47,162 nucleotides of DNA from positions 1 through 47,162 of the forward strand of contig JAFUAB010000025.1 of assembly GCA_017460885.1 (NCBI GenBank). Reading direction: 5' to 3'. Position numbers and translations under genes: made by a program. The DNA is from Lachnospiraceae bacterium. Its GTDB lineage: Bacteria; Bacillota; Clostridia; Lachnospirales; Lachnospiraceae. Below are positions 5,246-15,536 of the stretch, piece after piece (the first letter of the stretch is position 1; each line of letters starts with the position of its first letter). The notes beneath the pieces were generated by a model that saw only the letters and a list, made by a program, of their open reading frames with translations, ran no database searches and had not been told where the DNA came from.

Positions 5246-5418
5246 TGATCGAGGTCTCTGCGTCTTAGTTGCAGAAGCAGATAGAAGTTGTAATCACTAA
5301 TTAATTTTTGTAAAATATTAGAGCGTACTCAGGCTTAATGCGTATATCAGATCAGGAAGCCTGAAGAGGAGCGGTAATAAACTACCATTTGATCACCCCC
5401 GGTCATTTGTTGAAAAAT

Positions 5419-6948
5419 ATGAATCTCCAGAAGAAGGACAAACTGATACTGGCTGCGATCCCGCTGGTGTTTTATATTGCTTTCTGGCTTATCGATGGTG
5501 CGGTATGGTGCGCGGACAGTATCAGCTATGTGACAATGTATGATTCCAGAGAGCCACTGTATCCTACACTGTTGGCTTTATTCAGAAGGGTTATAGGATA
5601 TCGCGAGTCGTTGCCGGTCGAGGAACAGCCGTATCTGTTTTGGGTTGCCGGATTTCAAAGCCTTCTGGCAGCATTTGCCACCGGTAGCATTGCGTTTTTT
5701 TTGACAGAGCATTTTAAGCTGAACCGTATCGGAAGCTGCCTTGTAATGATGATACCGATCGGAGTATCGTTGCTTAACAGATTTGCGGCTCGCAGAGGAT
5801 CGATGTATTCTAACTGTATTCTGACGGAAGGGATCACCATAAGCATTTACCTGCTTTTTTTCAGGTATGAACTGGAGTATATTTTTGAGGGCAGTCGTAA
5901 AGGATTCATCATCGCTGCGTTACTGGCTTTTGCCGGGATAACTGCACGCAAGCAGATGTACGTTCTGGCCGGATTGCTGATCGTCGGGGAACTTTTGGGA
6001 TGGATCCGGGATGGTAAGCGGGAGCTGAAGCGATGGATTATACCTGGAGTTGCGCTGATACTGATTTTTACCGCATCGGGAGGCTTCGATCGGATATATA
6101 ATTATGCTTTGAGGGGGGCTTTCATCAGACATACCGAGGATAACCGATTCGTTACGACTGTTGCGATGTACACTGCGGACAGGAATTTTGCGGAATATAT
6201 CGATCCGGAGATCCGAGACGTTTTTCTTGAGATATACGACGAATGCGACGCATCCGGATATCTGGGAAATTCGGCGCCGACGGGCTGGATGGCCTCGGTA
6301 GATCATTTTGGTAAGAACTATGATCATATTCAGCTGGATGTAATGGAGGCAGTGCTTGAGCGTACCGTGGATGACCTTGACTACGAGCCACTTGAGGGAT
6401 CCAGACTGCATTCCGAAAGAATGGACATAGTCAGGGCCGCATTTAATAAGGCGCTCATTCCACATGAGATAGGGAGACTGTTCCGGCTGGTTGTTTTCAA
6501 TTTTTTGTCAGGCCTGGTGCTGACTGCTGCAAAGATGAACGGGGTGCTGGTCGTTTATTCCGTTGCGGTCTATGCGTTTTATCTGATGATGCTGGGTATA
6601 TTGACCCGAAAATGCTCAGATCTGAGAACGGACAGTAGCGCTCTGAAAACAGCGGGTTCAGCAGGCGGAGTAATTATAGAAGAAACAGAACATACGGCAG
6701 CGTGCATTGCGGATTCTGAGAGAAAGTATGAACCTGATAGGATGATCGCCTGTCGGGATGCAGTATTGACAGGAGTGTTTGTTCTGTTCGGGATAGTGAT
6801 GAATGTCGGCCTTGTGAGTGCGGTTATCTTCTGCCAGACCAGATATACAATATACAATATGCCGTTGCTGTACTGTGCTATGATCATAATGGGCCGGGGA
6901 ATTACCATCATAACCCCCGCAGACCGTAAATCTGCAGGTAAAGGTTGA
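5419..6948 (+). CDS. Polytopic membrane protein of unknown function (GT-C-like?)
   Basis: About 509 aa with roughly nine hydrophobic segments and a large non-membrane region in the middle (around ADRNFAEYIDPEIRDVF). The acidic/aromatic loop after the first helix (CADSISYVTMY, then REPLYPTLL) resembles GT-C glycosyltransferase-type proteins that use polyprenyl-linked sugars, but no exact family is recognised. The start is uncertain: ATG at 5419 is chosen, while TTG at 5389 has a distant AGAGGAG. The last 16 or so codons (ITIITPADRKSAGKG) are translated from the first unit of the 63-bp tandem array, which also supplies the stop codon. It lies between catabolic mannan genes and has repeats on both sides. 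Confidence 0.75.
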   Translation: MNLQKKDKLILAAIPLVFYIAFWLIDGAVWCADSISYVTMYDSREPLYPTLLALFRRVIGYRESLPVEEQPYLFWVAGFQSLLAAFATGSIAFFLTEHFKLNRIGSCLVMMIPIGVSLLNRFAARRGSMYSNCILTEGITISIYLLFFRYELEYIFEGSRKGFIIAALLAFAGITARKQMYVLAGLLIVGELLGWIRDGKRELKRWIIPGVALILIFTASGGFDRIYNYALRGAFIRHTEDNRFVTTVAMYTADRNFAEYIDPEIRDVFLEIYDECDASGYLGNSAPTGWMASVDHFGKNYDHIQLDVMEAVLERTVDDLDYEPLEGSRLHSERMDIVRAAFNKALIPHEIGRLFRLVVFNFLSGLVLTAAKMNGVLVVYSVAVYAFYLMMLGILTRKCSDLRTDSSALKTAGSAGGVIIEETEHTAACIADSERKYEPDRMIACRDAVLTGVFVLFGIVMNVGLVSAVIFCQTRYTIYNMPLLYCAMIIMGRGITIITPADRKSAGKG

Positions 6949-7351
6949 AGCAGGGGAGCGGGGATTACCATCATAACCCCCGCAGACCGTAAATCTGCAG
7001 GTAAAGGTTGAAGCAGGGGAGCGGGGATTACCATCATAACCCCCGCAGACCGTAAATCTGCAGGTAAGGGTTGAAGCCGGGGAGCGGGGATTACCATCAT
7101 AACCCCTGTAAACCATGAATCTGCAGGTAAAGGTTGAAGCCGGGGAGCGGGGATTACCATCATAACCCCCGTAAACCATGAATCTGCAGGTAAAGGTTGA
7201 AACCGGGGAGCGGGGATTACCATCATAACCCCCGCAGACCGTAAATCTGCAGGTAAAGGTTGAAACCGGGGAGCGGGGATTACCATCATAACCCCCGTAA
7301 ACCATGAATCTGCAGGTAAAGGTTGAAGCCGGGGAGCGGGGATTACCATCA
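6897..7351. repeat. 63-bp tandem array, seven full units plus a partial eighth
   Basis: The landmark ATTACCATCA recurs at 6901, 6964, 7027, 7090, 7153, 7216, 7279 and 7342, an exact 63-bp period. Each unit carries an imperfect GGGGATTA/TAACCCC hairpin. Units 1, 2, 3 and 6 also have a GCAGA-N7-TCTGC hairpin, while units 4, 5 and 7 have GTAAACCATGAATCTGC instead, giving the order AAABBAB. There are no unique spacers, so it is not a CRISPR. It starts inside the 3' end of the membrane protein gene, ends about 55 bp before the esterase start and fills that gap. Unequal crossing-over explains the mosaic. Confidence 0.95.
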
Positions 7352-7406
7352 CATGACTATGAGCCGAATTGGGCGAAATAATATACTCAAAACAACAGGA
7401 GCAGAA

Positions 7407-8693
7407 ATGAAAGACAACAGGATTAACTATGAAGGAGCGGTAGTTGAAAAAGGAACTCCGGAGAGGGTTCACAGAATTGAGAGACTGTTTGCCCGTGCGG
7501 AAGCCGGCGAGCCGGTCACGGTCGGTTTCCTGGGCGGAAGCATCACCCAGGGATCCGTGGCGACAGATGACACGCTCTGCTACGCATACCGGGTGTATGA
7601 CTGGTTTAGAAAGAAGTTTCCTCAGTCCGACGTAAAATACGTCAATGCCGGTATCGGAGCCACTGACTCGGAGTATGCGGCTGCAAGACTGCAGGAGCAT
7701 CTGCTTGCGAAAAAACCTGACTTCGTGCTGATGGAATTCTCGGTAAATGACGAATGCGAGGATCACTTCATGGAAACCTATGAGGGTGCCGTTAGGCAGA
7801 TTCTGTCCTATCGCGAGGACGTGGCGTTCATGCTGATGGCCAACGTGTTCTATAATGACGGTGCCAACTCCGAGCGGATCCACAGACGGATCGCCCGGCA
7901 CTATGGTCTGCCGATGGTCAGCATGAGGACCACGATATATGATGCCATTTTACGCGGGGAGATCGGGAACAATCGCGATATCACCCCTGATGACCTGCAT
8001 CCCAATGACGACGGGCATGCCCTGGTTGCGGGAGTGATCACGCATTACCTCGACTGCGTCAGGGAATACGGCTACGCCGGCAAGCCGTCTTTTGTCGAGG
8101 CCTTTACCGAGGCGGACAGGGAGGAACAGCAGGATTGGGACAGGGTTTCCGCAGAATTGGAGTATCCCGGGGAAGGACTTGGGCTACCTGTGCCGCTGAC
8201 ACTCAATCGATACGAACACAGCATCAAATATGACAATCGAAATTCCGAACCGGTACTAATGGGTATGCAGGGCTTTATCGCGGATAATGCTCAGAGGACA
8301 GCAGTAAAGGATTGCTTCAAGGAGGGCTACAGTACAAGAACTCCCGGAAGCTTTGCAGAATATGAGGTCGAGGGCAGCTGCATCGCAGTTCAATACAGAA
8401 GAACCATCAATCTGCCGGCCCCGAGGGCTAAGGTACTGATCGACGGAGCAGAGGTCATACTTCCGGTTATCGAGGGAAATGATCCCCGGGAGAATGGGGA
8501 TGAGGCTGGCTCACCGCTGATCCTTGATGCCAATTTTGACGAGACCTGGGGGGATAAGCTTGTACTCACAGATATTTATATGAGCGAAAAAAAAGCAAAG
8601 CATACGGTTCGTATTGAGATCATTGATGATGGTATCTCCGAATATTATGGAGATTTCTATTTGGCCGGAATCATAGTTTCTGGAAACAGATGA
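7407..8693 (+). CDS. SGNH-family acetylesterase, CE17-like (mannan 2-O-acetylesterase candidate)
   Basis: A 428-aa protein with an N-terminal SGNH/GDSL hydrolase domain and a C-terminal beta-rich domain (about residues 265-428) in the position of the CBM35-like module of CE17 enzymes. Visible catalytic blocks are GGSITQGS (nucleophile Ser), the oxyanion Gly/Asn blocks NAGIGATDS and EFSVNDE, and DDLHPNDDGHAL with the Asp and His. No signal peptide is seen, so it probably acts in the cytosol on imported acetylated manno-oligosaccharides. The start at 7407 is chosen because AGGAG (7397-7401) lies 5 bases upstream; an in-frame ATG at 7323 falls inside the tandem array. Specificity is inferred from architecture and neighbours. 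Confidence 0.85.
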   Translation: MKDNRINYEGAVVEKGTPERVHRIERLFARAEAGEPVTVGFLGGSITQGSVATDDTLCYAYRVYDWFRKKFPQSDVKYVNAGIGATDSEYAAARLQEHLLAKKPDFVLMEFSVNDECEDHFMETYEGAVRQILSYREDVAFMLMANVFYNDGANSERIHRRIARHYGLPMVSMRTTIYDAILRGEIGNNRDITPDDLHPNDDGHALVAGVITHYLDCVREYGYAGKPSFVEAFTEADREEQQDWDRVSAELEYPGEGLGLPVPLTLNRYEHSIKYDNRNSEPVLMGMQGFIADNAQRTAVKDCFKEGYSTRTPGSFAEYEVEGSCIAVQYRRTINLPAPRAKVLIDGAEVILPVIEGNDPRENGDEAGSPLILDANFDETWGDKLVLTDIYMSEKKAKHTVRIEIIDDGISEYYGDFYLAGIIVSGNR

Positions 8694-8775
8694 TGAATCC
8701 GAATAACAAGGGTAAACACTATTGAATGATGTTGATGGTTTGATAATGATATTGGGCGGTAGCAACTTCCAATAA

Positions 8776-8811
8776 AAAACCGCCCTGCGATTGCGAGTCC
8801 ACGGCGGTTTT
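8776..8811. terminator. Rho-independent terminator, possibly bidirectional
   Basis: The stem AAAACCGCC (8776-8784) pairs with GGCGGTTTT (8803-8811), with an A-run before and a T-run after. It lies about 80 bp after the esterase stop and would end the mannan transcript. Confidence 0.8.
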
Positions 8812-8832
8812 CTCATGTCGTAACACGTAGTT

Positions 8833-8855
8833 AAGGGGCGTTGTTATCGCCTTTT
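8833..8855 (+). terminator. Second, weaker terminator-like hairpin
   Basis: AAGGGGCG pairs with CGCCTTTT around a 7-base loop, including two G-T pairs, and is followed by more T. It lies in tandem with the terminator just upstream and shortly before the Nudix gene. Confidence 0.55.
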
Positions 8856-8902
8856 TGTATCTATATTAGCATATTTCGCGGATAATTCAATGGAAAAACA
8901 AA

Positions 8903-9523
8903 ATGAAAGAGAAAACATATTTTAACGATGTCCGCCGTCTTACGGACAATCCCTTTTTGAATCTGTATGAGATGGACGCGATCGCGCACAGCGGCGCGGA
9001 TTTCAAATATTATTTCGCCAGCAGACGATCCGAAGACAGGATACTGGTCCGCAGCGGCGACCTGACACCTGAGGGTGTGCTGGTTTATGCACTGGATGAA
9101 AGGGATCCGTCGAGGATACTCATGGTGCACCAGTACCGTTATCCTGTGGACCGATATCTGTATGAACTGCCGGCGGGACTGATAGAGCCCGGCGAGACTC
9201 CCGAGGAAGCCGCTATACGTGAGATCCGTGAGGAAACCGGCATGGAGTTTGCCCCATATGATGCGGGCATGAGCGGACTGACGCGTCCGTATATGCTGGC
9301 ACAGGGGATCACGGACGAGGTCGGGATCAATGTGTTTGGAACGGTGCGAGGGGAACTGTCGGCGGACTATCAGGAGGACACCGAATACATCCGCCCCATG
9401 TGGGCTGACATAAACGAGGCCCGCAGGATCCTGCGCGAGGAGATCACCTCGATGCGGGCGCAGCTGTTGCTCGGAATGTTCGTGCATGCGGACCCACAAG
9501 CTCCGTTTGAATTTTTGAAGTAA
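8903..9523 (+). CDS. Nudix hydrolase, ADP-ribose pyrophosphatase type
   Basis: A 206-aa cytosolic hydrolase of nucleoside diphosphates linked to another group. The complete Nudix box spans residues 92-114, GLIEPGETPEEAAI then REIREETGM, with the metal-binding REXXEE core intact. The length and the preceding PVDRYLYELPAG segment match the ADP-ribose/sugar-nucleotide pyrophosphatase branch; a GDP-mannose hydrolase (GDPMK-like) cannot be excluded and would fit the manA neighbour. The start at 8903 is preceded only by a weak purine-rich binding site. Two terminator-like hairpins lie upstream, so this gene probably begins a new transcript. Confidence 0.88.
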   Translation: MKEKTYFNDVRRLTDNPFLNLYEMDAIAHSGADFKYYFASRRSEDRILVRSGDLTPEGVLVYALDERDPSRILMVHQYRYPVDRYLYELPAGLIEPGETPEEAAIREIREETGMEFAPYDAGMSGLTRPYMLAQGITDEVGINVFGTVRGELSADYQEDTEYIRPMWADINEARRILREEITSMRAQLLLGMFVHADPQAPFEFLK

Positions 9524-10513: not shown

Positions 10514-10535
10514 TATACACAAAATTGTGTATAAT
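10514..10535 (+). promoter_or_regulatory. hicAB promoter -10 with overlapping 9-bp operator palindrome
   Basis: TATACACAA (10514-10522) and TTGTGTATA (10525-10533) form a perfect inverted repeat with a 2-bp spacer. The right arm runs into TATAAT (10530-10535), an ideal -10 box; the -35 is weak. The position suits autorepression by HicB or the HicAB complex. Confidence 0.75.
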
Positions 10536-10553
10536 AAAATTATAGGACACTTG

Positions 10554-10757
10554 ATGAATCCTCATAAAATTGCAGAGAAAGAATTAAAAAATTGTGGTTA
10601 CGTTGTTAAGAGGAGGGGCTCTAATCATGACATTTACTACAATGATCAGACAAAAAGCATAATACATCTTAAGAGACATGATTTTGATGAGGATGATCTT
10701 AGGTATATTCAGAAAGAAATAAAATGTTATGAAAAAAGGATGGAGGATGAGTCATGA
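10554..10757 (+). CDS. hicA: HicA family toxin, mRNA interferase
   Basis: A 67-aa protein with the double-stranded-RNA-binding-like HicA fold. HicA toxins cleave mRNA and stop growth when not bound by HicB. The active His is His25 in the RRGSNHDIYYN motif, the equivalent of the GSHH motif. The start is placed at the ATG at 10554, with AGGA (10544-10547) 6 bases upstream; a GTG at 10527 lies inside the operator and is unlikely. The gene is visibly more AT-rich than manA before it or the AIM24 gene after it, as expected for a transferred module. Its stop overlaps the hicB start (ATGA). Confidence 0.9.
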   Translation: MNPHKIAEKELKNCGYVVKRRGSNHDIYYNDQTKSIIHLKRHDFDEDDLRYIQKEIKCYEKRMEDES

Positions 10758-11140
10758 AATATTCATATTCAGCTACCTTCCAGGTTAAAGATGGAAAAGT
10801 ATATGCCCGAATTCCCGATCTGCCCGGATGCATAACGACCGGCAAGGATCTGGATGATGCGCTGGCACAGATAGTTGATGCGGCAAGCGGATGGCTGGTA
10901 GTCGCGGAGGATGAGAACCTGGACATACCGGTTCAGACAGTGCAGACTTCCCTTCCTCATGATGATGAGACCATATACTCCATCATACAGGTTGATACCA
11001 TTTCGTATCGGGCCAGAACTGATACGAAATCGGTAAGAAAAAACGTGTCCCTTCCTGCATGGATGGCTAATCTGGCGGATCGAAGGGGAATCAACTGCTC
11101 TCAGGTTTTGCAGGAAGGTCTAATGCGCAGATTCTCGTGA
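10754..11140 (+). CDS. hicB: HicB family antitoxin with ribbon-helix-helix-like tail
   Basis: A 128-aa antitoxin. Residues 1-60 form the partial RNase H-like HicB domain, seen as ARIPDLPGCITTGKDLDDAL, which covers HicA. The C-terminal segment KSVRKNVSLPAWMANLADRRGI, continuing to SQVLQEGLMRRF, looks like a ribbon-helix-helix DNA-binding domain, which would bind the palindrome upstream of hicA. It overlaps hicA by 4 bp and the next gene (GTGA) at its own stop, so coupling continues into the AIM24 frame. The toxin-then-antitoxin order is normal for hicAB. Confidence 0.9.
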   Translation: MKYSYSATFQVKDGKVYARIPDLPGCITTGKDLDDALAQIVDAASGWLVVAEDENLDIPVQTVQTSLPHDDETIYSIIQVDTISYRARTDTKSVRKNVSLPAWMANLADRRGINCSQVLQEGLMRRFS

Positions 11141-11934
11141 TTGAAACAAATATTTTTCAGGATACAAAAGCACACAAAATCGTAGATTCCAAGGGTCCTT
11201 TTTCGGTCCTGGAATACGAGCGCGACATGTCGGTCAGGCCCGAAGAGGCGGAGCTGGCTTATTTTGCGTCGGAAATGGACGTGCGCAAGAGACAGCTGGT
11301 GGCGGAAATACGCCGTGACCAGTCAGTGATCGCGCAGAAGGGCACCATGCAGCTGATGATCGGCGGAGTGACCGCGCAGACCGACGTATCGGATGCCGGC
11401 GACCTGGTCAAAAAGTTCGTGGGCGGTAAGGTGACCGGAGAAAAGGGCATCAAGCCCAGGTATTCGGGCGAGGGCCTGCTGGTCCTGGAGCCATCCTTCC
11501 GCTATATCATATTGGAAAGCCTGAAGGAGTGGCCCGGCGGGCTGATCGTGGAGGACGGCATGTTCTTAGCCTGTGAGGGCAATACAGAGCTGCAGGTGGC
11601 CGCGAGGCAGAATGTTTCATCGGCTGTGCTCGGCCGCGAGGGCCTCTTTAACACTGTGATGAAGGGCATAGGCGTGATCGCACTCGAGAGCCCGGTGCCA
11701 AGGGACGAGCTCATAGAGATCAATATGAAAGACGACGTGGTCAAGATTGACGGCAACATGGCGGTCGCATGGTCGGCGGAGCTCAAGTTTACGGTGGAGC
11801 GAACCACACCCACGCTGGTCGGCTCCATGATGTCCGGCGAAGGATTGGTCAATACCTATCGTGGCACCGGCCGTATTCTGGTGGCACCGGTCCGCGAGAA
11901 CCGCGGTATCCCCAGCCCGGATAACAAAAAATGA
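11137..11934 (+). CDS. AIM24 / TIGR00266 family protein
   Basis: A 265-aa protein of the AIM24 family, a beta-rich fold related to the tryptophan RNA-binding attenuator-like superfamily; its biochemical role in bacteria is not established. Family-like features are the glycine-rich beta strands (MQLMIGGVTAQTDVSDAG, SGEGLLVLEPSFRYIILE, SGEGLVNTYRGTGRILVAPV). No signal peptide or membrane helix is visible. The start is a GTG overlapping the hicB stop with no clear ribosome binding site, so it relies on coupling or begins slightly further in. It lies 138 bp before the ExbB-like gene and may share a transcript with that cluster. Confidence 0.85.
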   Translation: MIETNIFQDTKAHKIVDSKGPFSVLEYERDMSVRPEEAELAYFASEMDVRKRQLVAEIRRDQSVIAQKGTMQLMIGGVTAQTDVSDAGDLVKKFVGGKVTGEKGIKPRYSGEGLLVLEPSFRYIILESLKEWPGGLIVEDGMFLACEGNTELQVAARQNVSSAVLGREGLFNTVMKGIGVIALESPVPRDELIEINMKDDVVKIDGNMAVAWSAELKFTVERTTPTLVGSMMSGEGLVNTYRGTGRILVAPVRENRGIPSPDNKK

Positions 11935-12072: not shown

Positions 12073-12630
12073 ATGGATAAAGTAGTATTATGGGTCTTTA
12101 ATGCGCTGATAGCGGGATTCGGCGTGTTCGTGTTCATCGGTATTTCATCGGCACACAAACGCATGCTGGACAACCGTGACGAAGCCAGAAACGTATACGA
12201 GACCATCAAGGGCAAACCCGTGGTAGACATAGCCTCAGGCATGATGGGTATGTCCGCAGTAACGGAGTTTCAGCCCGAAAACATGGATTACATCCGTGAG
12301 AAATATAACAAAAACAGCACTATGTATTTCAAGTGGACACAGATGATATCCATTTTCCCGCTCATGGGACTGCTCGGTACTGTCATCGGCCTGATCCCCG
12401 GTCTGAACGCGGTCAGGGACGGCCAGTTCGATCTGCTTTATACCTCGTTGTCCACGGCATTGTACTCCACGCTGATAGGCCTGATCTGTTCGATAGTGCT
12501 CAAGCTCATCACCGCGTCATATTCCAGCACGATCTCCGACATAGAGGATTATTTCGAAGAAAACGACCGTAAGTACAATATGGCGCTGAACTTAAACCGC
12601 GTAAAAAAAGACATTGATCAGGGAAATTGA
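12073..12630 (+). CDS. MotA/TolQ/ExbB-family proton channel protein
   Basis: A 185-aa membrane protein of the ExbB/TolQ/MotA superfamily, the stator that converts ion flow into movement. There is an N-terminal helix (residues 4-25), then a cytoplasmic stretch, then two helices with the family signature: PLMGLLGTVIGLIPGL (96-111) and LSTALYSTLIGLICSIV (126-142), in which the pore Thr positions are kept. It is shorter than ExbB of Gram-negatives (about 240 aa). The start at 12073 has GGAGGAG (12061-12067) 5 bases upstream. An ExbD-like gene follows after 69 bp. Such pairs normally energise outer-membrane processes, so the role in an apparent monoderm is open. Confidence 0.88.
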   Translation: MDKVVLWVFNALIAGFGVFVFIGISSAHKRMLDNRDEARNVYETIKGKPVVDIASGMMGMSAVTEFQPENMDYIREKYNKNSTMYFKWTQMISIFPLMGLLGTVIGLIPGLNAVRDGQFDLLYTSLSTALYSTLIGLICSIVLKLITASYSSTISDIEDYFEENDRKYNMALNLNRVKKDIDQGN

Positions 12631-12699
12631 TGTACATCAGGCGAAGCGTCACCTGTCCGTAAAAGACAAATCAATACGGTACCTGCATAAATATAAGAA

Positions 12700-13266
12700 A
12701 TGAAAAAAAGCGTTAAAAAGGGACAAAACAGCATAGATATCGATCTGACCTCCATGCTCGATGTGATCTTCATTATCCTTATGGTCGTCATGTGCAATGT
12801 TACGCTCGGTCAGACCAGGGCAGAGGAGATACAGGAGCAGCTCGAGACAGCACAGTTCGAATTGAATGAGGCTCAGGCGAACCTTGAAACCTATGAGCAG
12901 CTGGTTGAGACCGAAAGTAATATTGAATCCGAGGTTGCGATCATTTCGCTTCACGCCGATTATGATATCAATGATCCGACCACCCGCAGTGTCCGTCTGC
13001 TCAGGCGTGTCGACAGAGACGGTAACGAAAAGGAGGCTGAGTTTACCGCCGTTACCCTGACCCCGTCCAATGACGGAAAGGATGCCGGCTTCGAGGAGAT
13101 CCGGAGCAGTCTGGAGACCTTTCTGAATGCCAATTCCGAAATACCGGTTCTGCTGCGGATCGATGATGAGCAGATCCTTTACCGTGACTGGATGACCTTG
13201 AACGAGATACTCGGTGAGCTTCAGACTGAGCATCGCAATCTGTTCGTTACGGAAGGCGCGTCATGA
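12700..13266 (+). CDS. ExbD/TolR-like protein
   Basis: A 188-aa partner of the preceding channel. The N-terminus DIDLTSMLDVIFIILMVVM (residues 13-31) is a clear ExbD/TolR signature, and Asp21 corresponds to the protonatable Asp in the single transmembrane helix. A predicted coiled coil follows (about 41-77, rich in Glu, Gln and Leu). A C-terminal alpha/beta domain outside the membrane ends with PVLLRIDDEQILYRDW then MTLNEILGEL, resembling the periplasmic domain of ExbD. The coiled coil between helix and domain is unusual for ExbD. There is no clear Shine-Dalgarno sequence. The stop overlaps the next start (ATGA). Confidence 0.85.
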   Translation: MKKSVKKGQNSIDIDLTSMLDVIFIILMVVMCNVTLGQTRAEEIQEQLETAQFELNEAQANLETYEQLVETESNIESEVAIISLHADYDINDPTTRSVRLLRRVDRDGNEKEAEFTAVTLTPSNDGKDAGFEEIRSSLETFLNANSEIPVLLRIDDEQILYRDWMTLNEILGELQTEHRNLFVTEGAS

Positions 13267-13883
13267 ACAGAGCCATGCCTGGTATCATCAGCACAGTTTT
13301 TATCGGAGATGTAAAAAACCTTCTCGGCAGTATGATCGCCAATATTGATCTCGGAATGATCATTCGCATAGGTCTGGCGATCGTGATCATCGTTATGCTG
13401 ATCAGGTTTTCCTTTACCGACAACCTGCTCAGGAGAAATCTTAAACCCTTTGCTCGCAGACTGATCGTACTTATCGGAGTGATCGCGGTCATCATCCTGA
13501 TGCTGGGTGCTCTCGGAAGCCTGAAAAGCCGCGGCGAGGGCACACTTTTTACCGATATGTCCTCGTATGGCAACCAGATCCTGACCGGAGATACGGATAC
13601 CGGAGATGCAGTGCTGGAGATCACAATTCGAGGAAACTCGGTGACCCTTGATAAAAAGGAGTATGAGAATATCGGGTCTTCGGATCAAGCCGCAGGTCAG
13701 GCCGGATCGCGTACGCAGACCGGCAGGGATGATCTCGCAAACCTGATAACAAATGCGGTCGGGAACGGCAGCAGAATAGTGATCATAGATGATTATGCCG
13801 CACGTTCGACCTATGAGGAAGTGATTTCAATGGCGGAAAATGCCGGATATGATCCGCAGAATATTGAATATGTTAAGTTTTAA
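13263..13883 (+). CDS. Membrane protein with ExbD-like C-terminal domain
   Basis: A 206-aa protein with two predicted helices (about residues 31-49 and 66-84), so both ends would lie on the same side. The C-terminal domain (about 115-206) starts with VLEITIRGNSVTLD and ends with GSRIVIIDDYAARSTYEEVI and a short strand. That layout, strand-turn-strand, helix, strand with Asp, helix, strand, resembles the periplasmic domain of ExbD/TolR and of the next protein. The N-terminal helices lack the DLTSMLD signature. It is translationally coupled to the ExbD-like gene. No named family is recognised; the ExbD relation is inference by eye. Confidence 0.75.
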   Translation: MNRAMPGIISTVFIGDVKNLLGSMIANIDLGMIIRIGLAIVIIVMLIRFSFTDNLLRRNLKPFARRLIVLIGVIAVIILMLGALGSLKSRGEGTLFTDMSSYGNQILTGDTDTGDAVLEITIRGNSVTLDKKEYENIGSSDQAAGQAGSRTQTGRDDLANLITNAVGNGSRIVIIDDYAARSTYEEVISMAENAGYDPQNIEYVKF

Positions 13884-14379
13884 AATAGTTCATTATCATT
13901 CAAAACATAAAACAGCATATATAGCAGCACTGATCCTGTTGTCGTTAATACTGACCGGTGCCGGGCTGTATCAGATGGAATTTAAAAGCGGTATAGATAA
14001 TGCCCATCCCCTGGTCAACTTAAACGAGATCATCAAGACAGGCGGAAGCTATCTTGCTAATGACTATACCTCTGCAGAGGCATCCGTGTCACAGACACCG
14101 GGGGCAGATGTCACTGCCGTGGAAACGACCGACACCGGCGCAGAAGAGACACCGGCGTCGTCGGTCACGGATCCGGCGGAGATCGAGATCCGCGGAACCC
14201 GCATCACCTATAACGGCAGTGAAAAGACAGAGGATGCGATCTATGCATACATCGAAGCCTGTAACAGACGCGGCACTCCCATAACGATCGACAACAGATA
14301 CGCTGACTATAAACTGTTTAAACGTATACAGAAATTTCTGGATGATAACAATATAAAAGGTTATGAGATCAAGGACTGA
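13840..14379 (+). CDS. Single-helix membrane protein with ExbD-like C-terminal domain
   Basis: A 179-aa protein: a short basic N-terminus, one helix (about residues 26-44), a Thr/Ala/Glu-rich linker (77-112) and a C-terminal domain (113-178) with AEIEIRGTRITYNG and TPITIDNRYADYKLFKRIQK. This tail aligns by eye with the tail of the preceding protein (IEIRG-x-x-I/V-T against ITIRG-x-x-V-T), so the two are probably paralogous in that domain. The start is uncertain: ATG at 13840 overlaps the previous gene by 44 bp, and 13849 or 13870 are possible. It most likely faces outside the cytoplasm, anchored like an ExbD. Confidence 0.72.
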   Translation: MPDMIRRILNMLSFKIVHYHSKHKTAYIAALILLSLILTGAGLYQMEFKSGIDNAHPLVNLNEIIKTGGSYLANDYTSAEASVSQTPGADVTAVETTDTGAEETPASSVTDPAEIEIRGTRITYNGSEKTEDAIYAYIEACNRRGTPITIDNRYADYKLFKRIQKFLDDNNIKGYEIKD

Positions 14380-15376
14380 ATCAAAAAAACATCATAACAG
14401 GGCATTATTGATGATCCTGAGTCTGATTCTGTGTGTTGTTTCGCTTGGGGCAAATCCGATATCCCATAACGATCCCGTGCTGGATATCTCCGAAGATCCG
14501 GTTTATGAGGTGGTTGATGCTGAAAACCTGTATTTAAGCCTCAAAAATTCTTATCAGAAAACCGTCTCGGTTTATAACGGACACAAGATTCTGATCTCGG
14601 GTACGGTGGCTTCGACCGACAAAACCTCCCTTACGCTTATGTCAGGTAAAGATGCTCCGGTTTCCGTCAGTGCAGACAAAACCCTGATCTCCGGCATAAA
14701 AGACGGCGATGAGATCTGCGTTCTCGGATCACTAAAGATCGGTAAGCAAAACAGTTCAAAACCGATAACCGTCAAGGCAGACCTGCTGACAACTCAGAAG
14801 CTCGACATGCAGCAGGACTACTATACCTGCATAGACGGTTTTTACAAGGGCTACTCGGATAAGTCTTCCGTAACTTATAAGCTTCCCGGAGGAAATATCT
14901 CGTTCAGAGTTCCTTCAGCCTGGGAAAATGTAAAGTGTACGGACGAGGAGCGTGAGAAGCTTTTTAATTCCGAGATCCTGGCAGATGCCGAATGTTTTTA
15001 TCCGGGCGGTCTGTACGGCAGCCGTGACCTTGAATGTTTTATCATCTTTTATCTGGATGATGATCTGCTTAAATTCGATTCCGACAGGGGCAGTCACGCT
15101 GTGATCGAGCAGACCGCTATAACCAATATCTGCCCCGATGAAAGGGGATTTATGGGACTGCGGCTTGCCGTTAACGATGCGCTGTTTAACAGATCCGTCA
15201 AATCCGATCTCGGGACGACCTTTTATACCAGATATGTTGCCACCTATGAGGATTACCGTGTCGAGTTTTCCTTTGTGCGGACAGGCAGCGGACGCATAGC
15301 CATGATGTACATCTATGACGACGACCGCGCGGCACTCTCCGACATCCTGTATGTGATGCGCTCGATCAGCTTTTGA
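14363..15376 (+). CDS. Secreted protein with OB-fold-like N-terminal part
   Basis: A 337-aa protein with a basic N-terminus and a hydrophobic signal segment (residues 13-29, ALLMILSLILCVVSLGA). A signal peptidase I site after Ala30 is plausible; the Cys24 context is not a good lipobox. Residues about 58-115 (HKILISGTVASTDKTSLTL, then DGDEICVLGSLKI) look like a small OB-fold of the tRNA_anti-like type. The C-terminal half (about 165-337) is a mixed alpha/beta domain with no recognised family. It overlaps the preceding ExbD-like gene by 17 bp, so it is likely an exported member of the same cluster. The 32-bp repeat array begins directly after its stop. Confidence 0.78.
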   Translation: MRSRTESKKHHNRALLMILSLILCVVSLGANPISHNDPVLDISEDPVYEVVDAENLYLSLKNSYQKTVSVYNGHKILISGTVASTDKTSLTLMSGKDAPVSVSADKTLISGIKDGDEICVLGSLKIGKQNSSKPITVKADLLTTQKLDMQQDYYTCIDGFYKGYSDKSSVTYKLPGGNISFRVPSAWENVKCTDEEREKLFNSEILADAECFYPGGLYGSRDLECFIIFYLDDDLLKFDSDRGSHAVIEQTAITNICPDERGFMGLRLAVNDALFNRSVKSDLGTTFYTRYVATYEDYRVEFSFVRTGSGRIAMMYIYDDDRAALSDILYVMRSISF

Positions 15377-15536
15377 TGTGTCAGCAGAACCGTCCCGGCG
15401 ACACATTGTGTGTCAGCAGAACCGTCCCGGCGACACATTGTGTGTCAGCAGAACCGTCCCGGCGACACATTGTGTGTCAGCAGAACCGTCTCGGCGACAC
15501 ATTGTGTGTCAGCAGAACCGTCTCGGCACACATGTT
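15377..15536. repeat. Five tandem 32-bp units of the GACGGTTCT repeat family
   Basis: TCAGCAG recurs at 15381, 15413, 15445, 15477 and 15509, an exact 32-bp period. Each unit is TGTGTC, then a core (AGCAGAACCGTCCCGGC), then GACACA, so the ends are a 6-bp inverted repeat. Units 4 and 5 have TCTC in place of TCCC, and unit 5 is degenerate at its right end. There are no spacers. The first unit begins with the base after the stop of the secreted-protein gene. Single copies and inverted pairs of the same core occur elsewhere in this window. Confidence 0.95.

Follow-up and report, generated by a model that had tools for sequence, protein, structure and literature searches.

The closest described relatives of the gene cassette reported here are the ExbB-ExbD-TonB and TolQ-TolR-TolA (Tol-Pal) systems, the AglR-AglQ-AglS gliding motor, the Zorya pair ZorAB and the MotAB stator. 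In the gliding motor, one TolQ-like ring protein is combined with more than one TolR-like protein, and both TolR-like proteins keep the membrane aspartate. Residues ExbD Asp25 and ExbB Thr148/Thr181 are described as essential, the TolR head as binding peptidoglycan, and ExbD heads as binding both peptidoglycan and partners, in the sections available of PMC12905483. AglRS is named among the non-flagellar motor relatives, some of them without a known function, in the available part of PMC12505986, and monoderm Clostridia are said in that of PMC12204202 to carry occasional Ton systems, thought likely to be non-functional. Here we analyzed a cassette encoding an ExbB-like protein, an ExbD-like protein, two membrane proteins with related heads (X and Y) and an exported protein (Z) at positions 12073–15376 of a 47,162-nucleotide stretch of Lachnospiraceae bacterium DNA (GCA_017460885.1, contig JAFUAB010000025.1, positions 1–47,162), hereafter the window. 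No description of an ExbB-ExbD-X-Y-Z cassette was found in the literature covered, preprints and most subscription papers being outside that scope, and the cassette probably encodes a so far undescribed motor that acts at the outer face of the membrane. With moderate confidence, we read it as a motor of the ExbBD/TolQR class, driven by the proton-motive force in an apparent monoderm, that passes movement to an outside target through the heads of X and Y. By analogy with its relatives, it would represent a new branch of the 5:2 class, both the 5:2 assembly and the ion flow being assumed.

The ring subunit, an ExbB-like protein of 185 amino acids (aa) with three predicted transmembrane helices (12073–12630; all genes of the cassette are on the forward strand), matched PF01618 over the cut-off (8.2e-14), and the ExbD-like axle subunit of 188 aa (12700–13266) matched PF02472, also over the cut-off (1.8e-6). 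The ExbB and ExbD signature strings named in the original prediction are present in the window. The ExbD has a single transmembrane helix with Asp21, followed by a linker and a diverged head with LYRD; Asp21 and LYRD are invariant in 15 aligned ExbDs, and all of 35 ExbDs carry the aspartate motif. In the window ExbB, Thr103 and Thr133 are the counterparts, by alignment, of Thr148 and Thr181 in E. coli ExbB, and the pair is threonine in all 34 ExbBs from both forms of the cassette, the five-gene form and the three-gene ExbB-ExbD-head form. The cassette thus combines the features of the motor superfamily, namely an ExbB-family ring subunit, an ExbD with a transmembrane aspartate and the two ion-path threonines, and the energised ExbBD-type module that had been proposed is borne out by the family matches and the retained residues.

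ExbB and ExbD are separated by 69 base pairs (bp), and the genes after ExbD overlap. X (13263–13883), with GGAAGG preceding its start at 13263, has two predicted transmembrane helices, a positive loop between them and a C-terminal ExbD-like head predicted outside the membrane (about 13596–13880), and gave no Pfam match up to an E-value of 1. Y (13840–14379, with an uncertain start at 13840 or 13870) has one N-terminal transmembrane helix or anchor, a low-complexity linker and a C-terminal ExbD-like head (about 14107–14376). Z (14363–15376) is an exported protein with a signal/anchor helix and an aligned C-terminal domain; for Y and Z of the window, Pfam matches were below the cut-off only. Topology was assigned from hydropathy and charge. 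Of 19 X proteins, 18 have two transmembrane helices, and the loop between these carries a net positive charge in all 18; the head of X is therefore predicted to lie outside. At least one helix was present in 19/19 Y proteins (net positive N-terminus in 18) and in 17/17 single-head proteins (net positive in 17); on these features, the heads should lie outside the membrane. In the best 19-residue transmembrane windows, a mid-membrane acid was absent from X, Y and the single-head proteins, an acid occurring in that window in 1/19, 3/19 and 0/17 of them, respectively, each time at the helix edge. Without a transmembrane aspartate, X and Y are not ExbD/TolR proteins proper.

The relation of these heads to ExbD was examined at the profile level. 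X and Y heads are homologous to each other (98%), and the single-head proteins match X and Y heads at 98.8% and 98.5%. The comparison set of ordinary ExbDs (n = 17) comprised E. coli ExbD and TolR plus 15 ExbDs taken from wider-phylum genomes. Against the heads of this set, a profile of 32 cassette heads matched at 86% and a profile of 55 heads at 91.8% with hhalign (E 7.2e-7, score 35.6); 200 column shuffles gave a mean score of 8.9, a standard deviation of 1.6 and a maximum of 14.0. With single sequences, 8 of the 17 ordinary ExbDs outscored the best of 90 unrelated proteins, as did 7 of 17 against the best of 120 with the larger profile. The homology of the X and Y heads to the ExbD periplasmic domain is therefore detectable at the profile level, in line with the ExbD-like tails named in the original prediction. 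A D-D-[YF]-A strand keeps its first D in 19/19 and its A in 18/19 X proteins (10/17 and 12/17 of the single-head proteins). The full cassette ExbD matches ExbD through its membrane part (94.5%), and its own head matches ordinary ExbD heads weakly (5.8%; score 19.3, with 200 shuffles reaching at most 14.6). Since the X/Y profile does match ordinary ExbD, the head most like that of an ordinary ExbD, as judged by sequence, is the one carried by the partner proteins, not by the cassette ExbD.

Conservation of the locus was assessed in 36 ExbB/ExbD-type loci read at length, window included; a second copy in genome G111 (L029), identical to L028 in gene lengths and in the first 70 residues, was left out of the counts. 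That genome apparently holds one cassette twice, on separate contigs whose flanks differ in part, either an assembly duplicate or a real duplication. The 36 loci fall into 19 of the five-gene form, 13 of the ExbB-ExbD-head form, three variants and one without a head (L035). ExbB-ExbD-X-Y-Z is thus complete in 19 of 36 loci, and in all 19 the order is identical and on a single strand, which is the conserved synteny in the family that the original prediction had called for. The same prediction had taken X and Y as alternative force-transmitting partners; every one of the 19 loci carries the two together, which suggests that they are joint partners instead. Among the variants, L158 encodes two head proteins, its fifth protein being a different one, L162, near a contig end, shows no ExbB, and L169 has the order head-ExbB-ExbD. 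This other protein of the four-gene variant L158 (8726–9331) occupies the position of Z and has 201 aa and an N-terminal transmembrane helix. L035 holds a different ExbB-like gene (8563–9520) that adjoins a short transmembrane protein and, by eye, transport-type genes.

An ExbB search matched 23 of 150 family genomes and, within the genus, four of seven (own included). An ExbD-profile survey of the family matched 30/396 genomes in 28/280 genera, and the head gene was present in the ExbB/ExbD cluster in 27/27 examined of those 30 genomes, one of them (L167) resting on a single weak match of 8.9e-4; twelve of these 27 loci carry just ExbB-ExbD-head. A class-wide survey matched 3/176 genomes: the window's own, one in another family, also with ExbB-ExbD-head, and a third at E 9.5e-4 in a 1347-aa frame. 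The Pfam ExbD model matched 1/243 class genomes, namely the window's own, and we therefore infer from these sequences that most ExbDs of such cassettes escape the model. Searched alone in 150 family genomes, the head profile gave 17 matches in nine genomes, 17/17 at head genes of known ExbB/ExbD clusters, although a profile built from cluster heads could miss remote free-standing ones. An order-wide search with Z matched 25 genomes; in eight the match was full-length or C-terminal, with the cassette present in 8/8, and in 17/25 it covered the N-terminal/OB part only. Of nine Z members, four matched PF12869 at E up to 10 (best 3.7e-9; window Z 0.021). Directly after the Z stop codon, positions 15377–15533 hold 4.9 copies of a 32-bp tandem repeat whose unit ends are inverted (TGTGTC...GACACA).

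The host appears to be a monoderm, since no Omp85 was found in 21/21 genomes (its own and 20 relatives, 11 of the 21 being ≥90% complete with contamination of ≤5%); the same search matches 7 of 14 control genomes. This agrees with the single-membrane host originally surmised. Contamination of the window's genome is 6.6%, but its genus mates have this cassette too. A tree of ExbB sequences separates the 34 from the two forms of the cassette, with support 100/99, from 28 others, namely E. coli ExbB and 27 of the wider phylum; the five-gene loci do not group cleanly on one side (2 changes), and there are five long branches of uncertain placement.

In the proposed mechanism, a ring of five ExbB copies, assumed by analogy, would enclose a pair of ExbD helices, and ions passing the ExbD aspartate would turn or shift the ExbD axle. 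Outside the membrane, the heads of ExbD would make a putative contact with those of X and Y, which are ExbD-like. X and Y, anchored in the membrane and lacking an ion-binding residue, would relay the movement to a target outside the cytoplasm, which is most likely the peptidoglycan wall and/or exported Z. The motor probably acts on the wall, its presumed target. An AIM24-family protein encoded at 11137–11934 (forward strand; PF01987, 2.2e-36), an accessory taken as cytoplasmic, probably serves in assembly or regulation. Twelve of the 19 five-gene loci have AIM24 next to the cassette, 11 with it upstream in the same orientation (separated by one gene in L155) and one with it divergent. Upstream of it in the window lies a toxin-antitoxin pair, HicA-like (below the cut-off) and HicB-like (10527–11140). 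Further upstream, a 63-bp tandem repeat of 7.2 copies (6895–7351) overlaps the end of one open reading frame (5389–6948) and the start of another (7323–8693).

Several results weigh against this mechanism. In 7/19 five-gene loci, AIM24 was missing from the stretch retrieved, and it is therefore not a core part. No Pfam family occurs in more than 5 of 96 flanking neighbors, and no consistent pathway emerges from them. With the larger profile, 10 of the 17 ordinary ExbDs, E. coli TolR included, fail to outscore the highest-ranking unrelated protein, and earlier head comparisons with small alignments were negative. The X/Y profile has no significant match to the cassette ExbD head (9.2%), and the direct pairing of heads is therefore a guess.

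A motor that carries out a TonB-like job without an outer membrane, in which Z binds an outer ligand and the motor moves that ligand or a carrier in uptake or export, is unlikely. The signal/anchor helix of Z in the 19 five-gene loci and an OB-fold-like region in some Z members are consistent with it, as is the TonB-like layout of the single-head protein, with a basic N-terminus, one transmembrane helix in most, a low-complexity linker and a small head. However, no transporter recurs among the neighbors scanned (ABC_tran 4/96, BPD_transp_1 5/96), Z is absent from the three-gene form, and the heads are unlike those of E. coli TonB or TolA, the head profile scoring 8.6–9.1 and 9.3 against them, below the mean of 11.2 for 120 unrelated proteins.

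A Zorya-like anti-phage system, in which the membrane motor would sense envelope injury at infection and trigger a response, would fit the patchy spread in the family survey, the weak matches of PADLOC ZorA models to ExbB (best 7.8e-7) and the PADLOC matches of some flanking genes (mad3 in 5/96 neighbors scanned). We nevertheless consider it improbable. Besides ZorA, PADLOC matched AIM24 and the five cassette proteins only with RT_UG33 (0.01, ExbD) and CARF_TM (0.0082, X); no ZorC, ZorD or ZorE is among the cassette proteins, and the 185-aa ExbB has no long ZorA tail, the available text of PMC11890865 indicating that Zorya needs both that tail and the ZorB peptidoglycan domain. The ExbD was unmatched in phage records and its pattern was not found in viral contigs, the ExbB was unmatched in plasmid records, the other cassette genes were all missing from eight viral loci that have a weak ExbB relative, and no neighbor family recurs above 5/96.

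That the X and Y heads resemble ExbD by chance, as small alpha/beta domains, is also given a low probability. No X member matches the Pfam ExbD model among the 25 families listed of 29, one Y member does so at E 0.97, and the first profile comparisons were negative; against this, the real profile score stands above the shuffle maximum, ordinary ExbDs taken together score higher than real proteins of no relation, and the heads are linked to ExbB/ExbD clusters. Improbable as well, finally, is a sensor of proton-motive force or envelope state in which ExbBD movement regulates AIM24 or wall synthesis with no mechanical work, a role suggested by AIM24 adjoining most five-gene loci but opposed by its absence from the fetched stretch of the remainder and by the lack of a recurrent regulator among the neighbors scanned.

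If the outward-working motor is the right reading, an ExbBD motor can persist where there is no outer membrane, as a compact, conserved cassette with its ion-path residues kept in a monoderm. The separate heads without the aspartate would then offer a natural experiment for telling the part of ExbD that handles ions from the part that bears force.

Compared with ExbB-ExbD-TonB, the cassette shares homologous ExbB and ExbD proteins and their ion-path residues, and the cluster also encodes a membrane-anchored protein with a linker and a small outer head; that head, however, is ExbD-like, unlike the E. coli TonB head, X has two transmembrane helices, Z and often AIM24 are added, and there is no sign of an outer membrane. 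No TonB C-terminal domain was recognized, the head profile being compared with E. coli TonB alone and the genome not searched for the TonB family, and the outer-membrane side of a Ton system was not found by way of Omp85 in the 21 genomes, TonB-dependent receptors themselves not being searched for. With Tol-Pal the motor class is shared, but the extra heads of the cassette come without the ion-binding aspartate; TolA, TolB and Pal were absent from the window cassette and from the 25 commonest of 119 families of 96 neighbors, no genome-wide search being made. The difference from AglR-AglQ-AglS is that only ExbD keeps the membrane aspartate in the cassette. Zorya ZorAB has a 5:2 MotAB/ExbBD-like core and a wall-binding outer domain (PMC11890865, in the part available), resembling the presumed 5:2 cassette, which differs in having no long cytoplasmic tail, helicase or nuclease effector. 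Although its ExbB is short and Pfam found no OmpA-like peptidoglycan domain in its proteins, the cassette belongs to the same superfamily as the MotAB stator, which is present in Gram-positives according to the available parts of PMC9389320 and PMC12505986.

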